Positions 4,962 through 23,263 of a stretch of DNA of 30,747 nucleotides are shown in pieces. Position numbers and translations under genes: made by a program. Each line of letters begins with the position of its first letter. Position 1 is the first letter of the stretch. This DNA comes from a virus: IMG/VR virus record IMGVR_UViG_3300028844_004700, positions 1-30,747 of that record, one strand, 5' to 3'. The notes under the pieces are model-generated. The model was not told where the DNA came from. It made no database searches and saw only the letters and a program-made list of their open reading frames with translations.

Positions 4962-7900
4962 ATGGCAGATTTAACCGAAACTAATTTAGACATTGAAAGT
5001 GATTTTATTGATCAACAAGATGAAATAATTAACCCTGTTTCTGACTTTGGCGATCTAAAGCAAGTTAAAGTTGAAGAGGAGGCGGAGTTCAACCAAGATC
5101 TAGACGCGGAAGAATTCTCCTTTACCGACAAATTAGGCGCAGCGCTTAGAAAAGAAAACTTTGTAGGCTCTTATATTAGCTCAGAAGATAACTTGAAAGA
5201 TATTAACCGCGCTAGTTGGGCGCCAGAAGAGGGCTATAATCCTTTTGATGGTGACATTGAAGGCTATGAAGGTTATGAGCAAGAATTCACTAAAGCATTT
5301 ACACCAGAAGCAACCGAGGCAATCAAGCGACAAATAGACAAAGAGCAAGAAGATAATAAAATATTAGAATCTGCTTTTATGGGTGGCGCTGGTTATTCTG
5401 TGTTAGCCGCTGTTACTGACCCTTCACAATGGGCGCTGGCTATCACTACTGGTGGAATGGGTAACTATGCAAAAGGTGTAAGCACTTTGGCTAAAGCCGC
5501 ACAAGCAACCGCCGCGGTAACTGGTGAAACTGCAATCACAGAGGCATTGCTTCAATCAACACAAAGCTCTCGGTCAGCTCTTGAATCTGCTTTTAATATT
5601 GGTGGTGCCGCTGTTTTAGGTGGCATAGTTTCCGCTGGTGCATTTAAAATATCTGATTCATTTGACGCAAAAGAAGCACTAAGCGCAGTTACCAATGAAA
5701 CATTAAAGCATGATAGCAAACACACCTTTAATACCGATGTAGAATCATTTTCTATGGAAGCTGGGGATATTTCAGAACATACCGCCGTAATGAATCAAGG
5801 CGCAGCTAATGATCTTGAATTTAATATCAAAGCTAAATCAGGTGGTGCGGCAGCGGTTGACCAAAACGTAAACTTAACTAATGAAGCGTTAAGTATGGCT
5901 AGCCAATCAAAGGCGCAAAAGGCAGCTAAAGCAATGGTTGATAGCAAGGCAAATAAAATCATTTCTAAGCATTCACCAATACTAAGAACTATCACGTCAA
6001 CAAATATTAACACTAAAAACGCTGTCGTTGGATTGGCTGAAAACGCACTGATCATGGAGAATAATTACTCAGGTGATTTAGTATCTAGCCTTGATTTTGC
6101 AATAAAAAAATCTAACTTAGATAATATCAACACAGCTCGTAATATGGCTGATGTTAAAGCCGAACAATTAAAGCTTGATGGAGATTACGAGGCAGCAGTT
6201 ATAAAAGCTGAGCAAGACGCAACTGATGCTTATAACCCTAAAAAGAGCAAATCAACATTAGAGCAATTTGTAACCGTAGCAAAGCGAAAAGTTAAAAGAG
6301 TTAATGCTCGGCTCCAAACCTCTAGAGATTTAAGCAAAGAAGTTAAAGAGGAAGCGCTTAAGTTAATCAAGGATAATCTAAGCCCCAAAGCAGCAGTTAA
6401 TGAGGCTATAGGAAATGTTTTAGCTAAAAATGGTGATTTAGGTGATCGGGCAAAGACGATAAAAGACAGTTTTAATTTATCTTTTGATGAAAAGTTTGTG
6501 GCTTCTCAGGCGTCAACGCAAGCCGCTGAAACAATCGCCAATAAAGAAACAGCAATGTATGTAAACAAGCTTTCAAGGCTTGAGGATGATTATTTTAAAA
6601 AGTGGAACGAGTTAAGCGGAAAAAATAGCAATAAGCGGAACGACTTTAACACAAAAGCTTTTATGGTTTACAACCTTGATGGATCAAACAGCGATGAGCT
6701 TTTAGGTGGTTTAGGCTTAACTGCTGACAGCTCAGAAGCTAACCTGCTTGTTGATTATGCAGGGCAAGTAAAGAAACAAGTTATGGATCCGCTTCAAGAC
6801 GATATAGAAGAGTTTTTGCCAACTCTATGGGAAAACATAACCGACGAAGAGGGCAATATAATTGATACAAATTACCTTCACCGTAAATATAACACGCAAG
6901 CTATTGCAGATAATCACGATGCTTTTAAATCCATCTTGGTTAAGTATATTGATAGTAGCTCAAGAATTGCCGCAGAGAATGCACGATTAAAATCAACCGA
7001 TGTTTTAAATAGCCAGTTATCAGCACAAAGATTTGTTAATAACTTAGAAGCTCAAATATTAGACACTGAGTTAAAAATAAAAGAATCCCCTACGGGCAAA
7101 CTAAAAAACGAACTAGAAACTGAATTAGAAGAATTAAACGAAAGCCTTTTATTTAGAGAAGAAAATTTAGATAAAGCTGAACAAGCAGTAAAGCGCAATG
7201 CAATCAGAGGTGAAGATTTAACCGAGGAGCAATTGAGCGTAGCGGCTGAATACACCATCCAGAAAATCACCGATAACGGCGGCATTCTTAATCCTAGTGA
7301 CTTAATGGGCGCTGGCTCTGACGACATATTTAAGGCTAGAACAATCCAACTACCTAACAGTGCATTTTTAGCTAGTGCGGCTGATAACGTTGCTAATGTT
7401 GATTTCATCAACACCAATTTGAACTATTCAATATCAAGAGCGATTGAAGGTGTTACGCTTGAGACTTCTATTGCAAAGGCGTTCAAAGATAAAGGAAAGT
7501 TTTCTTTTTGGCGTGAGGCTAACGAGATAGAAAAGTTTGGCACCAATGAAAAATTTATTCAAGACGAACCACGACACATTGAAACAATAGACGATATCAA
7601 AGCCTATGTTAAAAGTGCTTATGTATTGGCCATTAAAAACGGTGAAGATTTAGAGATGATCGGAAAGCAAACCGACCAAGATTTAAAAGATATTGACGTT
7701 ATGTATGAGCGCTTGAGAGGTAATCGCGGTTCTTATGCAGACCCTGCGTCATTTGGCGCTAAGTTAAGTAAAACCTTTATGACGATAGGAGCAACTGCTT
7801 ATCTTGGGAAAGTTACTTTATCTAGTGCTCCTGATGTTGGTCGATTAATTATAAGAAATGGATTTCAAGAGTCATTTGATGCCATGAAGGTAATTACATC

Positions 7901-13458: not shown

Positions 13459-13992
13459 TTAAAATTCAACCCTTAAAGATATGCTGGATATAGTTTTGCT
13501 TTGGTAGTTTGAATGTTCTGACTTTGCTTTTAAGCCGATTGAAGACCCAATATTTATGTAATATCTAAGCTCGCTAGATAATGATAAATAAGTATCTACA
13601 TTAACAGAGGCAAACGAGATATAATTAATCACAGCCATTCTTTCATGTGCGTAACTGTATAATCCGACTTTAAACGAGGTGCCCTGTTCTCCGTTTCTTT
13701 TTTGGTGCTCAGCGGCCACAAACGCATAATTGTTATCATTAATTTCAATCTGCACACCTAAACCACCACCATAAACTTTCGTTTTTTCTGTTGAAAACAT
13801 ATTTTCTGAGTATGCTGAAAAGTAAAGGTTTTTATCAATCTGTTTGCTTATTCGCATAGATTGAAACGCCGAACCTTTACCGCTTGACTTTATCGAGCCA
13901 ATAGATAGTTGCATGTAATCTTGGCTCATTAGATTAGCCGCTGCTGTTCCCTGAGTTAGAATTAACGCTATTGCTATTATTAAGTGTTTCAT
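13459..13992 (-). CDS. Secreted, outer-membrane beta-barrel-like protein
   Basis: Residues 1-19 form a classic signal peptide (basic MKH, hydrophobic core, cleavage after Ala-Ala-Ala19). The mature 158 residues show many alternating polar/aromatic strands, such as 'YFSAYSENMF', 'YAFVAAEHQK', 'FKVGLYSYA' and 'SLSSELRYYINIGSSIGLKAKS'. The chain ends 'ISSISLRVEF', a C-terminal Phe with alternating hydrophobic residues like the BAM-recognised beta-signal. An eight-stranded outer-membrane barrel fits the length. Phages and prophages sometimes encode such proteins (lambda Lom, for example), with proposed roles in receptor masking or host-surface change. Its start overlaps the coiled-coil gene by 59 bases. 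The role is unknown. Confidence 0.65.
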   Translation of the reverse strand: MKHLIIAIALILTQGTAAANLMSQDYMQLSIGSIKSSGKGSAFQSMRISKQIDKNLYFSAYSENMFSTEKTKVYGGGLGVQIEINDNNYAFVAAEHQKRNGEQGTSFKVGLYSYAHERMAVINYISFASVNVDTYLSLSSELRYYINIGSSIGLKAKSEHSNYQSKTISSISLRVEF

Positions 13993-14265: not shown

Positions 14266-14499
14266 CTATTCCCCTTTCTTGCTTTTATATGCAATTTCCG
14301 ATTCTGTCATTAACTCAGAAACACGGCAGCCGATTAACTCACAATACTCAGCAATGCCAGATATTTTCTTGATAGCGTCACCGTTAAATGCTAACTGTAT
14401 CGCTCTGTTTGATACACCTCGCTTTCTTGCTAAGTCATTGACTGAAACGCCGTGACGAGCCATCACCACCTTAAACCCTGCTGTAATATCTAATTTCAT
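14266..14499 (-). CDS. XRE/Cro-type HTH transcriptional regulator
   Basis: This 77-residue protein is a single helix-turn-helix domain: residues 7-60 contain 'GVSVNDLARKRGVSNRAIQLAFNG', the usual XRE scan, followed by a dimer-type C-terminal helix. The start at 14499 (ribosome site 'aaggg') is preferred over 14532, because a sigma70-like promoter at 14559-14531 predicts transcription beginning near 14524. A TTCGC/GCGAA inverted repeat in that promoter's spacer is a likely operator for this or another phage repressor. It heads the leftward unit that includes endolysin and holin and may set its timing. It lacks the C-terminal domain of a CI-type repressor. Confidence 0.7.
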   Translation of the reverse strand: MKLDITAGFKVVMARHGVSVNDLARKRGVSNRAIQLAFNGDAIKKISGIAEYCELIGCRVSELMTESEIAYKSKKGE

Positions 14500-14530
14500 T
14501 TTTAAGCCCTTGTAAATATAAAGTACAGTC

Positions 14531-14559
14531 ACAATACTTCGCTTTGCGAAAGTTTACAA
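14531..14559 (-). promoter_or_regulatory. Leftward sigma70-like promoter with inverted repeat in the spacer
   Basis: On the minus strand, TTGTAA (14559-14554) and TATTGT (14536-14531) are separated by exactly 17 bases, each matching the consensus at 4 of 6 positions. The inverted repeat TTCGC-TTT-GCGAA (14538-14550) fills the spacer, where a bound repressor would block RNA polymerase. The expected start near 14524 gives a leader of about 25 bases before the regulator ATG at 14499. Confidence 0.55.
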
Positions 14560-14941: not shown

Positions 14942-16561
14942 TTAAAGAATTTTAGCTAATTGAAAAGCAAAGTCTCCTGCTAACTCATTATCAATGTAAA
15001 AATGGTACTGCGGCGGCATAAGAGATTTTATTTTTTCTCGCGCAATATCAGTTTCGTTTATTTTCTCGCTGATGCTCTCAGGAACTTCAAACTTAACAGG
15101 CTGTGAATTTACGCCTTTAAAATCTGGTTCAGTTCCTTTAACTGGATAATCAGGCTCAACAGGTTTTTCAACTGGCTTGTTTTTTTCTTCCAGTTGTCTA
15201 GCTTCTTCCTGTTCAAGTAAGAGCTTCTCACGCGCGGTTTCAGAAAGTAGCTTTTTTTCCTCTGCTTTCTTGTGGTCGTTAATTCGAGTAGTAACGATTG
15301 CCTTAAACGCTTCGTAAGGTTGATTAAGCAATTCAAAAGCATCATTAAATAAAAATTTGTAATCATTTGCTCTTTTTTCTAATAACTCAAAGTTAGGAGC
15401 GATTAGCTTAGTTGCTTCTGTAAGTTTGATTTTCCACTCGTTAACAACAGTGTCCAGCGCGTCTTCAATAGATGTGATTGTGCGCTTGTTTTTCATTGCC
15501 AAGTCAAAGTCAGGGTTAATATTAATAATTCGACCAATACCAAACTGAGCGCCAATTTCACGATCACATTCAAAAACACAATTATCAATTTTTTGTTGAG
15601 CGGTGTTTTTGAGATTGTTTTTCTTATCTTCTTTTGCTTGTTTAACTTGCTTTTCGCCATGCGCATACATTTTTTGAAGAACAGAATCAATGTCAGCGGC
15701 TAAACCTTCAAATTCTGCATAACTAACAAAGCTTGTTTTAATATCAGCTACGCGCTGTTTCAATTCTTCGCGTGTTTTCTTAACTGCTTTGTTTAGTTGG
15801 TCTTTTTCTGCAAAATCAGAATCGCTTTGTAAGTCGCGTTTCATTTCAACTATCGCAAGGTCTTTTATTTGAGTTAAATAATCAGGAAGGTTACTGATTA
15901 TATTTGTACCTTCAACCTTGCAATGAATTGAAGGCAACTCTTTTTTATCAGCAACAACAGTTTCTTGCTTTGCTTCAATTACGTGATTTTCTAAATCTTT
16001 TTCAAACAACAACCAAGCGTTAATTAATTCTTCGCGGCGCTCTGGCACTGAAAAATATTTCATCATTACGCGCTTTTCTGCTGTTCCATCTGAAACAACA
16101 AATAAAACATATTCATGCTCAGAAACTAAAAGCTGGTGCTCTAACTGCCAATAATGAGAGGGCTCTAACGTTTCATTTCTTACGTTTTCCGCTAACGTTT
16201 CATTCCAAAGTTTATGCTCAAACTCATGATCGTTATCATCTGAAATGCCATCAAAAGAAGCCATTAAGCGCAAACCTTCAATGTCATATCGAACACCGAC
16301 ACAAGGAAGGTAATCGTCCATTGTTTCAATCGATAATGTATTACGTGCGGCATCTTCTGCTTTATGCCCTTTATCAAAAAGAATTTGCTTTGATTTTGGG
16401 ATAACCGCTTCTTTAAACTCAACACTTTTTTCATCAAGCAACTGTTTACGTGTTTTGTACTTACCAGCTCCAAGAATGACCGCCGCTTCTGTGGCTGTAA
16501 AATGACTATGTCTAGACAATTTCCATTCTAAAGTGCCTTGCTCTAAGCTTAATAATTCCAT
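14942..16561 (-). CDS. YqaJ/lambda-Exo-type recombination exonuclease with long C-terminal extension
   Basis: Residues 1-200 form a YqaJ-type nuclease: 'GTLEWKLSRHSHFTATEAA' at 9-27, 'FDKGHKAEDAAR' with E69, 'ASFDGI' with D104, and 'EFEHKLW' with E115 and K117, which are the PD-(D/E)xK residues, then 'QLEHQ' at 139-143. It would degrade 5' ends to give the 3' strands annealed by the ERF protein encoded just upstream. Residues of about 230-460 are a charged coiled-coil region like those fused to or paired with phage YqaJ proteins. The tail is rich in Pro and Glu. The start follows the ERF stop by one base, with 'gaggtaaaatag' as ribosome site. Confidence 0.85.
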   Translation of the reverse strand: MELLSLEQGTLEWKLSRHSHFTATEAAVILGAGKYKTRKQLLDEKSVEFKEAVIPKSKQILFDKGHKAEDAARNTLSIETMDDYLPCVGVRYDIEGLRLMASFDGISDDNDHEFEHKLWNETLAENVRNETLEPSHYWQLEHQLLVSEHEYVLFVVSDGTAEKRVMMKYFSVPERREELINAWLLFEKDLENHVIEAKQETVVADKKELPSIHCKVEGTNIISNLPDYLTQIKDLAIVEMKRDLQSDSDFAEKDQLNKAVKKTREELKQRVADIKTSFVSYAEFEGLAADIDSVLQKMYAHGEKQVKQAKEDKKNNLKNTAQQKIDNCVFECDREIGAQFGIGRIININPDFDLAMKNKRTITSIEDALDTVVNEWKIKLTEATKLIAPNFELLEKRANDYKFLFNDAFELLNQPYEAFKAIVTTRINDHKKAEEKKLLSETAREKLLLEQEEARQLEEKNKPVEKPVEPDYPVKGTEPDFKGVNSQPVKFEVPESISEKINETDIAREKIKSLMPPQYHFYIDNELAGDFAFQLAKIL

Positions 16562-16562
16562 G

Positions 16563-17309
16563 CTATTTTACCTCTACTTGTTTTAGTTGTTCGAACTGCG
16601 CTTGGCTGATCACAATTCCTTTTTTCTGCAAATATGTAAGCATTTGATCAGGTGTTTTTTTGCCTACCTGTATTACTTTTGACCATGCAGGGAAGTTTTT
16701 ATTAAACTCTGTATCTGGGTAGCACTGAGTCTCTTGGTTGATATCAAAGCCAGTTCCATCTTCGCTATCAAAATCTTCACCGCCAACAACAATCCCCATT
16801 AGCCCAGTTAAAGTATAACGGCGTAAATATGAAAGAGTTGAAGCAATGCCCTTTAGCGCATCTTTGCCGCCACTGGAATCTCGACCAGAAGTTAGCTCGC
16901 TAAACTCAGAGTGTCCATCTTTGTGCGTGACAATGCAACGAACGGTAATTAACTCTACATTTTGCGATTGAGTAAATCGGTAAGACAATCCAGTTTTCTT
17001 TAATGCTGGCTTTATTGCCTCCGCAATATCTTCAATTTTTGCGTAAGTGTAGTAAGTTCGACCCTTTGAGCTTTCAAAGTCAACAACCCCACCTTTTTCA
17101 ATTACTGGTAAAATTGATTGGAACTCTGACATAGCCAAATCAAAAGCCTTTTTAGCTTGATTGGCATCGTAACGCTCGCTTAATGCCATTAGTCGCTCTA
17201 GCTTTTCAATGTCAGCGCCTTGATTTACCGCAAGCTCGACCAATCGCATTGGCGTACTTTGGCTTACTTGTAAGCGTTGATTTTCTTGTGTGATAATTTC
17301 GTTTTCCAT
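16563..17309 (-). CDS. ERF-family single-strand annealing protein
   Basis: This 248-residue protein carries the ERF signature: 'YTYAKIEDIAEAIKPALKKTGLSY' spans residues 87-110 (abridged here to its key stretch), and 'GGKDALKGIASTLSYLRRYT' lies at 148-166. 'GLMGIVVGGEDFD' follows at 169-181. ERF proteins, as in P22, form rings that anneal complementary single strands and partner with an exonuclease, which is the next gene here. The family length is about 200-250 residues, so the protein is complete. The C-terminal 60 residues are a variable region. The ribosome site is 'aggag', 5 bases before ATG 17309. Confidence 0.9.
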   Translation of the reverse strand: MENEIITQENQRLQVSQSTPMRLVELAVNQGADIEKLERLMALSERYDANQAKKAFDLAMSEFQSILPVIEKGGVVDFESSKGRTYYTYAKIEDIAEAIKPALKKTGLSYRFTQSQNVELITVRCIVTHKDGHSEFSELTSGRDSSGGKDALKGIASTLSYLRRYTLTGLMGIVVGGEDFDSEDGTGFDINQETQCYPDTEFNKNFPAWSKVIQVGKKTPDQMLTYLQKKGIVISQAQFEQLKQVEVK

Positions 17310-17317
17310 GGTAGCTC

Positions 17318-17608
17318 CTATTTATAAACACACTTAATTTCAGCTATTAAAGCTTCAACTTTGCAATTAAAGTCGTATATTGATTTCGCATCGAGCGGTA
17401 AATAAATAGAATTCACGCAATGTATATCTACATCACCATTCCATATGTAACATATTAAATACCCACAGTTCGGCTTAGCATCTACGCTGAGGCTAATGCC
17501 ATTTCTTGGCTTAAAATCAACAGTAAAATCAACAATTTTATTAATGCCTCTCTTAACTGCTTCTTTTATTTGTTTCTGCTCGTTTATTTGTTTCTGTTCG
17601 TTATTCAT
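17318..17608 (-). CDS. Paralogue B of a small phage protein pair
   Basis: A 96-residue protein begins with a Gln-rich duplicated start (NEQKQINEQKQIKEA). Its body 'GINKIVDFTVDFKPRNG...KPNCGYLICYIWNG' aligns without gaps for about 80 residues to the 118-residue protein encoded at 17671-18027, with close to half of positions identical by eye. The two genes are therefore a tandem duplication. The ribosome site 'aagga' precedes ATG 17608. No function is recognised; both sit between the small membrane genes and the ERF gene in the first leftward operon. Confidence 0.6.
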   Translation of the reverse strand: MNNEQKQINEQKQIKEAVKRGINKIVDFTVDFKPRNGISLSVDAKPNCGYLICYIWNGDVDIHCVNSIYLPLDAKSIYDFNCKVEALIAEIKCVYK

Positions 17609-17618
17609 ATTTTAATCC

Positions 17619-17678
17619 TTATTTATTTAAAATATCGCGATGAATGCACACTTTTGTTTGCTCGTAATTCCTACCCAT
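17619..17678 (-). pseudogene. Remnant of duplicated small-gene 3' end (19 codons)
   Basis: A 19-codon frame overlaps the stop of the 17671 gene and ends 'CIHRDILNK', echoing the end 'RINCDILNK' of the small membrane protein at 18152-18331. The last 20 bases (17619-17638) are identical to 18152-18171, a direct repeat 533 bases apart. This is best read as the broken edge of the duplication that made the paralogue pair. It could still be translated, but the ribosome site is weak. Confidence 0.5.
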
Positions 17679-18027
17679 ATTCGCGCTTAATTTCAGATAT
17701 TAAATGTTCAACATTGAAATTAAAGTCGTCGATTTCTTTTATTGAGAGTGCAAAGTGTACAATCTGCATGCGACATGCTTCTCCTTTACCGTTCCATACA
17801 TAACAGAATGAATAACCATTGTTAGGCTTAAAATCTATGCTAAACCGGTTGCCATTTTCTGGCCTAAACTCAATCGCAAAATTAACAAGCTTATTAATAC
17901 CTTTCTCAATCGCTTGGTTTACTTGTTGTTGTTCGTTTTCAAACTCAAATCTAACGCTGCCAATAACAACAAGATTGCCATATTCAATTGACCAATCCCC
18001 CTTTGTAAATTTAGTTTTATTGCTCAT
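17671..18027 (-). CDS. Paralogue A of a small phage protein pair
   Basis: A 118-residue protein with 'GDWSIEYGNLVVIG' near the start, then the region shared with the 96-residue paralogue ('GINKLVNFAIEFRPENG...KPNNGYSFCYVWNG') and the ending 'HLISEIKREYG'. The frame is open to 18087, but 'ggaggtg' lies 7 bases before the ATG at 18027, and that ATG overlaps the stop of a 37-residue membrane protein (TAATG), so 18027 is the likely start. No family was recognised. The conserved 'KPNxGYxxCYxWNG' core suggests a common fold kept under selection in both copies. Confidence 0.6.
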   Translation of the reverse strand: MSNKTKFTKGDWSIEYGNLVVIGSVRFEFENEQQQVNQAIEKGINKLVNFAIEFRPENGNRFSIDFKPNNGYSFCYVWNGKGEACRMQIVHFALSIKEIDDFNFNVEHLISEIKREYG

Positions 18028-18140
18028 TACAAAACACCTCCAGCGATAAGTGATCCAACTATATAAAAAGCAAACGCAACTGAGCACATAACTATGATTA
18101 CTGTCGCCTTAAACTCTTCTACCATTTTTGGTTCTTTCAT
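18027..18140 (-). CDS. 37-residue single-span membrane protein
   Basis: A short frame (MKEPKMVEEFKATVIIVMCS...) encodes a charged start and one hydrophobic span, about residues 12-36, ending 'GGVL'. Its ATG at 18140 has 'aaagga' upstream, and its stop TAA overlaps the start of the next gene. Tight coupling on both sides supports real coding. Small membrane peptides expressed first from an early phage promoter often act on the host envelope or in superinfection exclusion, but no function can be read from this sequence. Confidence 0.55.
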   Translation of the reverse strand: MKEPKMVEEFKATVIIVMCSVAFAFYIVGSLIAGGVL

Positions 18141-18151
18141 TTTTATTTCCT

Positions 18152-18331
18152 TTATTTATTTAAAATATCGCAATTAATGCGTTCGTTGTAAGCTGGCATA
18201 CCGTTCGTAATGCGTTGGCAGTATCTGCTTTGCTCTATCTGTTCATCTTCAAAGCTAAGCTCCCCCATGATTAAAGCAATCAAAAAAATTATCAATACTG
18301 TTAAATATGCCTGTACTTTGTTAGTTGTCAT
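18152..18331 (-). CDS. Small membrane-anchored protein, first leftward gene
   Basis: The 59-residue product has a hydrophobic span at about residues 8-24 ('AYLTVLIIFLIALIMG') and then an acidic, Cys-containing tail (C38 and C54 approximately) ending 'DILNK', probably periplasmic. The frame extends upstream to 18379, but a promoter at 18398-18370 puts the transcript start near 18363, and 'agga' precedes the ATG at 18331. It is the first gene of the leftward early unit. The tail could form a disulphide. Function unknown. Confidence 0.55.
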   Translation of the reverse strand: MTTNKVQAYLTVLIIFLIALIMGELSFEDEQIEQSRYCQRITNGMPAYNERINCDILNK

Positions 18332-18369: not shown

Positions 18370-18398
18370 ACTCTAGCAATTGAATTTTATACTGTCAA
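18370..18398 (-). promoter_or_regulatory. Leftward early promoter
   Basis: Minus strand: TTGACA (18398-18393), a perfect -35 hexamer, then 17 bases, then TAGAGT (18375-18370), 4 of 6 matches to the -10 consensus. The predicted start is near 18363, about 32 bases before the ATG of the first leftward gene. The -35 box abuts the palindrome array. Confidence 0.65.
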
Positions 18399-18441
18399 CT
18401 AGTATTTAATAAATATTTAATAAATATTTATTAAATATTTA
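18399..18441. repeat. Phased palindrome array in the divergent control region
   Basis: Three exact copies of the 10-bp palindrome TAAATATTTA lie at 18410-18419, 18421-18430 and 18432-18441, with centres 11 bp apart, about one helical turn. Together they form a perfect 32-bp inverted repeat (18410-18441). A degenerate copy (7 of 10) at 18399-18408 keeps the 11-bp phase. The array sits between the -35 boxes of the two divergent promoters, so it is a likely cooperative operator, or an AT-rich unwinding or origin element. Confidence 0.75.
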
Positions 18442-18463
18442 CTGTATTTATTGCAAATATATA

Positions 18464-18492
18464 TTGACTTGGCTTTTTTTGTTAGGTACATT
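18464..18492 (+). promoter_or_regulatory. Rightward early promoter
   Basis: TTGACT (18464-18469), a 17-base T-rich spacer and TACATT (18487-18492) make a good sigma70-type promoter. Transcription would begin near 18499. The ribosome site 'gagga' at 18512-18516 precedes the HTH gene at 18523. Confidence 0.7.
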
Positions 18493-18522: not shown

Positions 18523-18756
18523 ATGTACGGTAATACAATTAAATCACTAATGAATAAACATTCTTTTGACTCTGTTTATGAGCTAGCTAAAGAATCAGGT
18601 GTAACCGCAATGGGTATAAGCAATATTATTAATAATGATGTTAAAAAGCCTCATCGCACAACCATTAAAAAACTAGCTGAGGTTTTTGACTTAACGGTAA
18701 TTCAATTAAAAGACCAAGTTAAAGCAGAGCAAGAAAAATATAGCGATGAGGGGTAA
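18523..18756 (+). CDS. Cro/XRE-type HTH regulator, first rightward gene
   Basis: A 77-residue HTH protein: residues 15-65 read as 'SVYELAKESGVTAMGISNII' and then 'HRTTIKKLAEVFDLTVIQLK', a complete XRE domain with nothing beyond it but a short charged tail. Its position directly after the rightward promoter and next to the palindrome array makes it the best candidate for binding that array, as Cro does in lambda-like switches. No full-length CI-type repressor with a cleavage domain was found. The stop is followed 3 bases later by the replication gene. Confidence 0.75.
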   Translation: MYGNTIKSLMNKHSFDSVYELAKESGVTAMGISNIINNDVKKPHRTTIKKLAEVFDLTVIQLKDQVKAEQEKYSDEG

Positions 18757-18759
18757 TTC

Positions 18760-19569
18760 ATGAAATGGGTTAAACACGACACAGATGCAAACCAAGACGC
18801 AAAACTTCAAAATGTATTGCTTGATTATGGACTTGATGGTTACGGGCTTTATTGGTACTGCATAGAGCTTATTGCTGGAAAGGTTGATAACGACAATATA
18901 ACGTTTGAACTTGAGCATGACGCTAGAATCATAGCTAGAAATACTGGCAGTTCTGTTCAAAAAGTTCAAGAAATGATGACTTATTTTGTTAATGAGGGTT
19001 TGTTTGAGAATAACGATGGGGTTGTTACATGCCTAAAGCTTGCTAAGCGATTAGATAAATCAATGACAAGCAATGCGCAAATGCGTGAAATCATTGGTAA
19101 TTTAAAAAGTCATGATTCAGTCATGATAAAATCAGCAAAACCCATGCAAGATAAGATTAGATTAGATAAGAATAGATTAGATAAGAATAGAGAAGATATA
19201 AACCCTATTGTTAAGCCAGAGGCTAAACCAAGTAAATATAAGTTTGACGCTTATCACATGGAGATTTCGGATTGGATGCTTTCAAGGTTGTTAGTTCTAT
19301 ACCCAAATCTAAAAAGGCCAAATTTAGATTCTTGGGCTAACACTTTAAGGCTAATGATTGAAGTCGATAAGCGAGATCCTGCTATGATTAGCAAGGTTTT
19401 CGAGTGGGCTAATCAGGACACATTTTGGTCTAGTAATATTTTAAGCGCCAACTCACTAAGGAAACAGTTTGATAAGCTTGCTGTTAAAGTAAATCAGCCA
19501 GCGAACAACCAATCAACGCTAAATAGAATTAGCAGTGATTTCAGTAAAAAACCGGAAGGGTGGAGTTAG
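18760..19569 (+). CDS. Phage replication initiator (Lin1244/Lin1753-like N-terminal domain)
   Basis: The 269-residue protein starts 'MKWVKHDTDANQDAKL', followed by 'YGLDGYGLYWYCIELIAG', the hallmark of the DUF4373 winged-helix domain in phage DnaD/O-like initiators (residues 1-110). A short linker with 'DKIRLDKNRLDKNRED' at about 130-144 is encoded by 15-bp DNA repeats that may be the origin. Residues 155-245 are a helical C-terminal domain with 'DSWANTLRLMIEVDKRDP' and 'FWSSNILSANSLRKQFDKL', likely to contact the helicase loader encoded next. The ribosome site is 'gagggg'. It would bind the origin and recruit host DnaB through the loader. Confidence 0.8.
   Translation: MKWVKHDTDANQDAKLQNVLLDYGLDGYGLYWYCIELIAGKVDNDNITFELEHDARIIARNTGSSVQKVQEMMTYFVNEGLFENNDGVVTCLKLAKRLDKSMTSNAQMREIIGNLKSHDSVMIKSAKPMQDKIRLDKNRLDKNREDINPIVKPEAKPSKYKFDAYHMEISDWMLSRLLVLYPNLKRPNLDSWANTLRLMIEVDKRDPAMISKVFEWANQDTFWSSNILSANSLRKQFDKLAVKVNQPANNQSTLNRISSDFSKKPEGWS
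19146..19190 (+). repeat. In-gene iterons, putative replication origin
   Basis: Two identical 15-bp units (attagataagaatag) lie at 19161-19175 and 19176-19190, and a third, 11 of 15 matching, at 19146-19160. A purine-rich AT stretch follows. They fall within the linker of the initiator gene, like the origin inside the lambda O gene. Codon constraint on the linker could also produce a repeat. Confidence 0.55.
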
Positions 19570-19570
19570 C

Positions 19571-20278
19571 ATGAAAACACTATCTGAACTTTTAAATGAA
19601 AATGACAATGGTGACAAACCTAAATTAACCTATGAAGACCTGCTTAAAAAGCGCGAGGAGGAGAATAAGCAATTTATAGATGAACTCGTCAAGCAAAAAG
19701 GCAAAAGCTCCTTAGAATTGCTTGTAGGGCGCTCTGGTATTTTACCATTACACCAAGATTGCACGGTAAATAATTTTATTGCTAACACGCCAGAGCAAAA
19801 AAGAGCAAGGCAGTTTGCGCACTTTTACGCTCTAAACTTTAACAAAGACAACGGCACTAATTTTATTTTGAGTGGTGAAAGCCGAACAGGTAAAAATCAT
19901 TTGTCAGCAGCAATTTGCAGCAAATTAATTAAAGATGGTAAGTCATGCTTAATAATTACCATTACCGATTTAATGATAAAAATGCGCAAGTGTTACGGTG
20001 ACAAAGCGGAATTAACAGAAGATGAATTCATTAATAGCTTAATAAAATTAGACTTATTGGTTATTGACGAAATCGGATTGCAACGCAAAAACGATAATGA
20101 AATGCTTTTGCTTAATCAAATAGTTGACCAGCGAACAGGGCATTTAAAGCCAACTGGAATGCTAACGAACTTAAACTCGGAAGAATTAAGCGCCCTTTTA
20201 GGTGTTCGCATAATGAACCGAATGCAAGAAAACGGCGGTCAATGGGTCGCATTTAATTGGTCAAGCTTTAAAAAATAG
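19571..20278 (+). CDS. dnaC: DnaC-like helicase loader (AAA+ ATPase)
   Basis: A 235-residue protein resembling E. coli DnaC. Walker A is 'GESRTGKNHLSAAI' (residues 102-115) with K108 and the DnaC-typical Asn109-His110; 'DGKSCLIITITDLM' follows, Walker B is 'LLVIDEIG' at 162-169, and 'NQIVDQRT' and 'TGMLTNLNSEEL' are sensor-region matches. The ending 'WVAFNWSSF' also matches DnaC. It would load host DnaB onto single strands opened by the initiator. The ATG at 19571 has 'ggag' just upstream; an earlier ATG at 19535 lies inside the initiator gene and is less likely. The N-terminal 50 residues are charged, suiting a DnaB-binding region. Confidence 0.88.
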   Translation: MKTLSELLNENDNGDKPKLTYEDLLKKREEENKQFIDELVKQKGKSSLELLVGRSGILPLHQDCTVNNFIANTPEQKRARQFAHFYALNFNKDNGTNFILSGESRTGKNHLSAAICSKLIKDGKSCLIITITDLMIKMRKCYGDKAELTEDEFINSLIKLDLLVIDEIGLQRKNDNEMLLLNQIVDQRTGHLKPTGMLTNLNSEELSALLGVRIMNRMQENGGQWVAFNWSSFKK

Positions 20279-23104: not shown

Positions 23105-23263
23105 ATGGCTAAATCAGAAACGACACCAATTAAAGTTTACTTTCCTAAGTCGCAGCATGACAAGCTTATGGAAGAAAAAAAGCAGTCTGGAAAATCTATT
23201 TCTAAAATAGTTAATGGTCTTATAGATAAAAACCTACCATCAAAGGGCGGTTCAAATGGCTAA
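23105..23263 (+). CDS. Small ribbon-helix-helix protein
   Basis: A 52-residue frame reads 'IKVYFPKSQHDKLMEEKKQS' and then 'GKSISKIVNGLIDKNL', a ribbon (residues 9-13) followed by two helices, the layout of Arc/CopG-type DNA-binding dimers. Its stop overlaps the terminase small subunit start by 8 bases. A ribosome site 'agtggtg' precedes the ATG. It may regulate the late region or assist terminase in binding DNA; the gene order suggests the first, but this is inference. Confidence 0.6.
   Translation: MAKSETTPIKVYFPKSQHDKLMEEKKQSGKSISKIVNGLIDKNLPSKGGSNG

Follow-up and report, generated by a model that had tools for sequence, protein, structure and literature searches.

Tandem AT-only palindromes between divergent early promoters of a podovirus-like phage, a candidate operator of its Cro-like protein

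What is a run of phased palindromes doing between two back-to-back early promoters of a phage? We addressed this question in a virus record of 30,747 bases (the whole stretch of DNA that was analysed, hereafter the window). The phage is small and podovirus-like. Its large terminase is ~42% identical to those of Vibrio phage CKB-S2 and other roughly 32-kb Vibrio phages, and the order of its morphogenesis genes resembles theirs. The early genes follow a lambdoid order. Judged from the sequence, our best reading of the array, held tentatively and a little short of an even chance, is that it is the operator of the phage's own Cro-like helix-turn-helix (HTH) protein (18523-18756).

The early region and its promoters

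The leftward operon that starts at the array encodes ERF and a RecE/YqaJ-like exonuclease. The rightward operon encodes, in order, a Cro/C1-type HTH protein, the initiator, a DnaC-like loader, Dam and NinG. All main genes point away from the array, and the GC skew changes sign there and at ~11.3 kb, which makes the array the genome's only divergent transcription hub. No CI-type repressor or integrase was seen among the proteins scanned, and a scan of the leftward genes likewise gave no CI-type protein. The features of this region are as follows.

14942..16561, minus strand: YqaJ/RecE-like exonuclease, leftward operon
16563..17309, minus strand: ERF-type ssDNA annealing protein, leftward operon (3e-20)
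18152..18331, minus strand: phrog_6168, a small protein of unknown function encoded by the first leftward gene, start codon probably the ATG at 18331
18370..18398, minus strand: predicted leftward early promoter, -35 TTGACA (18398-18393), 17 bp, -10 TAGAGT (18375-18370), extended TG (10/12; by position only)
18464..18492, plus strand: predicted rightward early promoter, -35 TTGACT (18464-18469), 17 bp, -10 TACATT (18487-18492) (9/12; by position only)
18523..18756, plus strand: small HTH protein of the Cro/C1 type (77 aa) whose gene opens the rightward operon (Pfam HTH_26 2.6e-7, HTH_3 8.3e-7)
18760..19569, plus strand: replication initiator with a Lin1244/DUF4373 N-terminus and a lambda-O-like C-terminus
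19148..19198, plus strand: iterons of 15 bp (3.4 copies of AAGATAAGAATAGAT) within the initiator gene, a candidate origin of replication
19535..20278, plus strand: DnaC/IstB-type helicase loader (P-like)

The initial annotation had placed the array between -35 boxes at 18398-18393 and 18464-18469, and we found the boxes at these positions, flanking an element at the promoter hub. Each -10 hexamer scores 4/6. Promoter-like matches in the region are not above shuffles (9 vs 10.6 ± 3.5), so the predicted promoters rest on position and not on the scan. Between the two -35 boxes lie 65 bp with 91% AT. This gap holds the genome's most AT-rich 65-mer, and the genome's least stable 60-mer lies there too. 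The midpoint of the gap (18431) coincides with a dyad axis of the array.

Some other features of the window were recorded in passing. The iterons fall between the DUF4373 and lambda-O-like parts of the initiator gene and are a likely origin, as in lambda O. Two neighbouring leftward genes (17318-17608 and 17671-18087) are tandem paralogues with ~73-76% identical DNA over two stretches; neither has a family match. The product of 13459-13992 (minus strand) matches Pfam TDH below threshold (E 0.004; 17 bits, cut-off 27 bits). This protein appears to be beta-rich and either secreted or located in the outer membrane, and the TDH match is no basis for calling a toxin.

Architecture of the array and its candidate ligands

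The decamer TAAATATTTA occurs exactly only three times in the 30,747 bases, at 18410-18419, 18421-18430 and 18432-18441. As first described, the three exact palindromes have centres 11 bp apart and build a perfect 32-bp inverted repeat (18410-18441); the runner-up among the gapless palindromes of the window has 14 bp. A fourth, degenerate copy in the same phase had also been proposed. This description holds in part: weak copies lie in phase on either side, but there is no clean fourth copy, and the slot at 18443-18452 matches at just 5/10 positions, leaving a hole between the perfect series and the copy at 18454.

A palindromic unit repeated in tandem has two series of dyad axes, so the array can also be read as three 15-bp dyads of the form ATATTTA-w-TAAATAT, centred at 18409, 18420 and 18431. 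We assigned no strand to the following elements.

18399..18408: in-phase degenerate copy CTAGTATTTA, 7/10
18402..18416: putative operator A, 15-bp dyad GTATTTAATAAATAT, 6/7 paired, centre 18409
18403..18441: tandem array with a period of 11, 3.5 copies of TATTTAATAAA (Tandem Repeats Finder, 96% matches, one mismatch)
18413..18427: putative operator B, 15-bp dyad ATATTTAATAAATAT, 7/7 paired, centre 18420, overlapping A and C (read from the sequence)
18424..18438: putative operator C, 15-bp dyad ATATTTATTAAATAT, 7/7 paired, centred on 18431, where the interval between the -35 boxes has its midpoint, and 22 bp from A
18454..18463: degenerate copy CAAATATATA in the same phase, 8/10, standing 22 bp beyond the last perfect copy

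We compared the array with null models. Among 20,000 composition-matched sequences, none (0) contained a palindrome of at least 32 bp; with order-1 models of the intergenic region the frequency was 5e-5. A short-period self-match of at least 39 bp never appeared in any null model. The hexamer TATTTA stands at 18403, 18414, 18425 and 18436. The tight 11-bp packing most likely arose from tandem duplication of one dyad, so that the exact phase reflects one event and not three coincidences. Upstream of leftward genes, at 17611 and 18144, there are repeats resembling the array, which we rejected because translation of these genes starts there. By eye we also noticed a single 17-bp dyad that covers the leftward -35 box (ATACTgtcaactAGTAT, 18389-18405); it is likely due to chance and was not counted.

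The protein encoded at 18523, initially annotated as HTH, belongs to the Cro/C1 type by Pfam and is the likeliest candidate ligand of the array. Its model from alignment-free structure prediction has five helices at low confidence (pLDDT 56). We detected no homologues in phages, and among viral contigs only one carries it (L001, discussed below). A 41% match in a Mogibacterium genome and weak plasmid matches were judged uninformative. None of the collections searched contains a close homologue from which the DNA recognition of this protein could be deduced. Two further proteins are alternative candidates.

14266..14532, minus strand: second small Cro/C1-type HTH protein, inside the leftward operon (HTH_26 5.8e-5)
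23105..23263, plus strand: small ribbon-helix-helix-like protein, 52 aa (model pLDDT 79; Foldseek)

The surroundings of the array recall the oR/oL and Cro region of lambda. The gene at 18523 is the first one past the rightward promoter, ahead of the lambda-O-like initiator and the DnaC-like loader, just as a small HTH protein comes first in the rightward early operon of lambda before the O and P genes. Dyads lie between or beside the early promoters in both, and a recombination operon runs leftward. Unlike in lambda, we found no CI-type gene that would share the operators, and the promoters stand back to back around one shared array. Whereas the 17-bp operators of lambda are ~23-24 bp apart, the AT-only dyads of the window are packed every 11 bp. 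In lambdoid Cro operator regions, several similar dyads of 14-17 bp stand ~22-24 bp apart; the window has dyads at 22 bp and also overlapping ones at 11 bp. The Cro operators of the telomere phages PY54 and N15 are also short palindromes next to early promoters (16 bp there), and the one that PY54 Cro binds lies upstream of the gene for the prophage repressor of that phage (PMC4488713). The operators of these phages differ from the array in being single or spaced, in having G/C contacts and in lying beside a prophage repressor gene.

Two properties of the array speak against an operator. Both -35 boxes have the dyads on their upstream side, where activator sites and UP elements are at least as typical as repressor sites, and HTH proteins do not usually have operators made of A and T only. 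The spacing also has to be considered. The two major grooves read by a dimer of the Cro type follow each other on one face of the helix, and the usual spacing of such dimers is 22-24 bp. With centres 11 bp apart, two dimers would compete for one major groove, so only alternate sites, 22 bp apart, could be filled together. The initial annotation had held that an 11-bp phase on one face suits cooperative binding of HTH dimers. This argument is weak, because on general grounds neighbouring dimers would compete for the major groove and because one duplication accounts for the phase. Its broader proposal, an operator for a protein of the 18523 type, is favoured by the Cro-type family and by a coupled promoter change in one pair of relatives (below), but the 11-bp geometry is doubtful.

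Control regions of related phages

We searched 2.9 million viral contigs with two array patterns. Apart from unrelated chance matches, only L001 was retrieved. This contig is identical to the window over 5391 bases, array included, with zero differences; no relatives at 80-95% identity turned up. It is consequently not an independent test of the array, and we rejected it as evidence of conservation. The initial annotation had looked to relatives for the same array and 11-bp phase; neither was found there, the sole second copy being this identical contig, and by the terms of that annotation this counts in part against its proposal. The chance matches to the first pattern lie inside one AT-rich coding gene present on three contigs. 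The match to the second pattern, on L114, is a hairpin beside a TnpB-like gene (5272-5295, TATTTATTAAATATTTAATAAATA), the same motif in an unrelated context.

Because no independent copy of the array was found, we compared the control regions of phages that have the initiator gene in common with the window. Pantoea phage PdC23 has the same layout, comprising a leftward ERF operon, a small DNA-binding regulator, a DUF4373 gene and a P-like gene, and Bacteriophage 15G is laid out in the same way. Their initiators are homologous to that of the window, and both have back-to-back predicted promoters around an AT-rich gap, which measures 44 bp in PdC23, 44 bp in its relative L111 and 43 bp in 15G. 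PdC23 and 15G differ from the window in this shorter gap (43-44 bp), in its unrelated sequence, in an unrelated small regulator and in having no 11-bp array. The gap of the window is 21-22 bp longer than those of PdC23, L111 and 15G, about two 11-bp units, so the relative helical phase of the two promoters is kept. In control regions of the PdC23 type (L111:1350-1550 and L024:2060-2250) we noticed by eye CAAAGnnnCTTTG-like dyads near the -35 boxes, some of them ~23 bp apart; these are candidate operators of the PdC23 Cro-like protein.

One pair of relatives gives evidence of a link between regulator and promoter DNA. The flanks of L094 and L102 are near-identical (87% for the leftward protein, 96.5% for the N-terminus of the initiator), whereas the Cro-like proteins are just 42% identical and the promoter DNA diverges abruptly. 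In these sequences, regulator and promoter DNA have been exchanged together, as for a repressor-operator cassette. The coupled exchange is seen in one pair only, and its Cro-like proteins are not close to that of the window. The segments L094:1417-2489 and L102:1693-3929 provide a natural repressor-operator swap in environmental phages.

In L102 there are also two 15-bp dyads with an odd centre that consist of A and T only (nTTATTT-A-AAATAAn), and the distance between them is exactly 22 bp. A pair of dyads 93% identical to each other stands at this distance in the window, and neither pair was recovered in 5000 dinucleotide shuffles. These observations support, purely by analogy, an operator role of AT-only dyads next to the gene of a Cro-like protein, the proteins of the two phages not being close. 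In L058, L069, L074 and L079, a small protein that reads as ribbon-helix-helix lies upstream of the DUF4373 initiator gene. This suggests that in the slot before the initiator one fold has been replaced by another, ribbon-helix-helix standing in place of helix-turn-helix.

Alternative explanations and a proposed switch

The AT-richness of the gap raises the question of whether a phage protein is needed at all. As a two-way UP element, the array would offer the minor groove of its phased AT stretches to host RNA polymerase, for docking of the alpha C-terminal domains, and would boost both early promoters without a phage protein. We consider this somewhat unlikely as the explanation of the array, and it may coexist with operator function. 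Known UP elements (rrnB P1, Mu Pm) are similarly AT-rich directly upstream of -35 boxes, and in relatives with this layout the DNA between the two boxes is AT-rich as well, with an unrelated sequence. Phage promoters with UP elements are known (PMC4390567). In the -59 to -38 register, the published UP consensus (quoted in PMC5664571) is matched well on the left side, at 11/15 for the leftward promoter (top 0.4% of genome positions), and at 10/15 for the rightward one (top 1.6%). However, this score is high for any AT-rich DNA (mean 8.0, s.d. 1.7 in windows with at least 19 A/T of 22), and the two values are about 1.2-1.8 s.d. above such windows. UP elements require neither palindromes nor a three-fold exact repeat, are not palindromic arrays and seldom cover as much as 65 bp for two promoters at once. 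Relative to the leftward promoter, the perfect array occupies mainly -40 to -78, and from the rightward one it is farther away than usual. A host factor could use the same DNA, either as a nucleation site for an H-NS-type silencer or through an OmpR/PhoB-type regulator on the TATTTA direct repeats, and we regard this as very unlikely. H-NS-type proteins prefer AT-rich DNA with TpA steps, and 11-bp direct repeats are usual for OmpR/PhoB-type regulators; TATTTA recurs in 11-bp steps from 18403 to 18436. An unwinding element of a replication origin, the alternative offered in the initial annotation, is highly improbable. The genome's least stable 60-bp stretch is at the array, near the skew minimum and 0.7 kb from the iterons. 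The array does not adjoin the initiator iterons, and none flank it. The origin-like iterons instead lie inside the O-like gene with an AT-rich stretch of their own (77% AT at 19149-19213), as in lambda, which makes unwinding at the array less likely.

The spacing itself would suit a different kind of protein. In operators of the ribbon-helix-helix type, which include those of Arc and MetJ, short palindromes stand in tandem about one helical turn apart, and dimers bind adjacent sites cooperatively on one face of the DNA, at about the spacing of the array. RelB, of this fold, occupies adjoining 12-bp half-sites (PMC2812701). In the YefM operator, whose protein had an unsettled fold, the centres of the palindromes are 12 bp apart (PMC4803016). 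Under this reading, each 10-bp palindrome would take one dimer of a ribbon-helix-helix regulator, for instance the 23105-23263 protein. Its model has an extended strand followed by two helices, the best Foldseek matches include the ribbon-helix-helix proteins ORF56, Arc and CopG, and small proteins that read as this fold are encoded upstream of the initiator in several relatives. We nevertheless rate this as quite unlikely. The structural matches are weak (E 0.08-1.4), the protein has no Pfam family match and no homologues in the phage collection, and its gene lies 4.6 kb off, adjoining the small terminase gene. Unlike for RelB-type operators, no such protein is encoded at the hub, and relatives that do have one there have no 11-bp array. 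Equally improbable is a neutral or structural tandem repeat, in which slippage expanded one 11-bp unit into what is a mere easily bent or melted spacer. One repeat event would account for the phase, with one mismatch in 3.5 copies, for a gap about two units (21-22 bp) longer than in PdC23, L111 and 15G, and for the absence of the array from the relatives compared. Slippage alone does not call for a unit that is itself a dyad, a gap midpoint on a dyad axis or the recurrence of 22-bp dyads in L102.

An operator of the Cro-like protein therefore remains the best reading; the array, its location, the gene order, the HTH fold family and the coupled change in one pair of relatives are observed, and from here on we infer binding, the dyads occupied and the direction of the effect. 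Soon after infection both early promoters would fire, the leftward one transcribing the recombination genes and the rightward one the genes for the Cro-like, O-like and P-like proteins and the rest. As the Cro-like protein accumulates, its dimers would bind the AT-only dyads and block sigma and the alpha C-terminal domains of RNA polymerase at both promoters. Both operons would be turned down, including expression of the Cro-like gene itself. With overlapping dyads 11 bp apart, dimers would fill alternate sites (22 bp apart) and not all three. A more specific proposal, which we consider unlikely, is an overlapping operator lattice of identical dyads one helical turn apart, in which neighbours share a major groove and dimers exclude each other, so that occupancy would flip between two registers. 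In one register the middle site would be filled alone; in the other, the two outer sites, 22 bp apart, would be filled together.

The array is real and unusual in its tight 11-bp packing, yet it belongs to a well-known kind of switch. The L094/L102 case, in which phages with this replication module have swapped a small regulator and its promoter DNA together, is useful for predicting regulator specificity in uncultured phages. If the lattice exists, two divergent promoters would respond in a dose-dependent manner to one small Cro-like protein, without CI. If the array is the operator of the Cro-like protein, it would offer a clean test of HTH operators packed closer than the protein can fill, and the phage would have a condensed form of the lambda control region that lacks CI and regulates its two early operons from a single set of sites.
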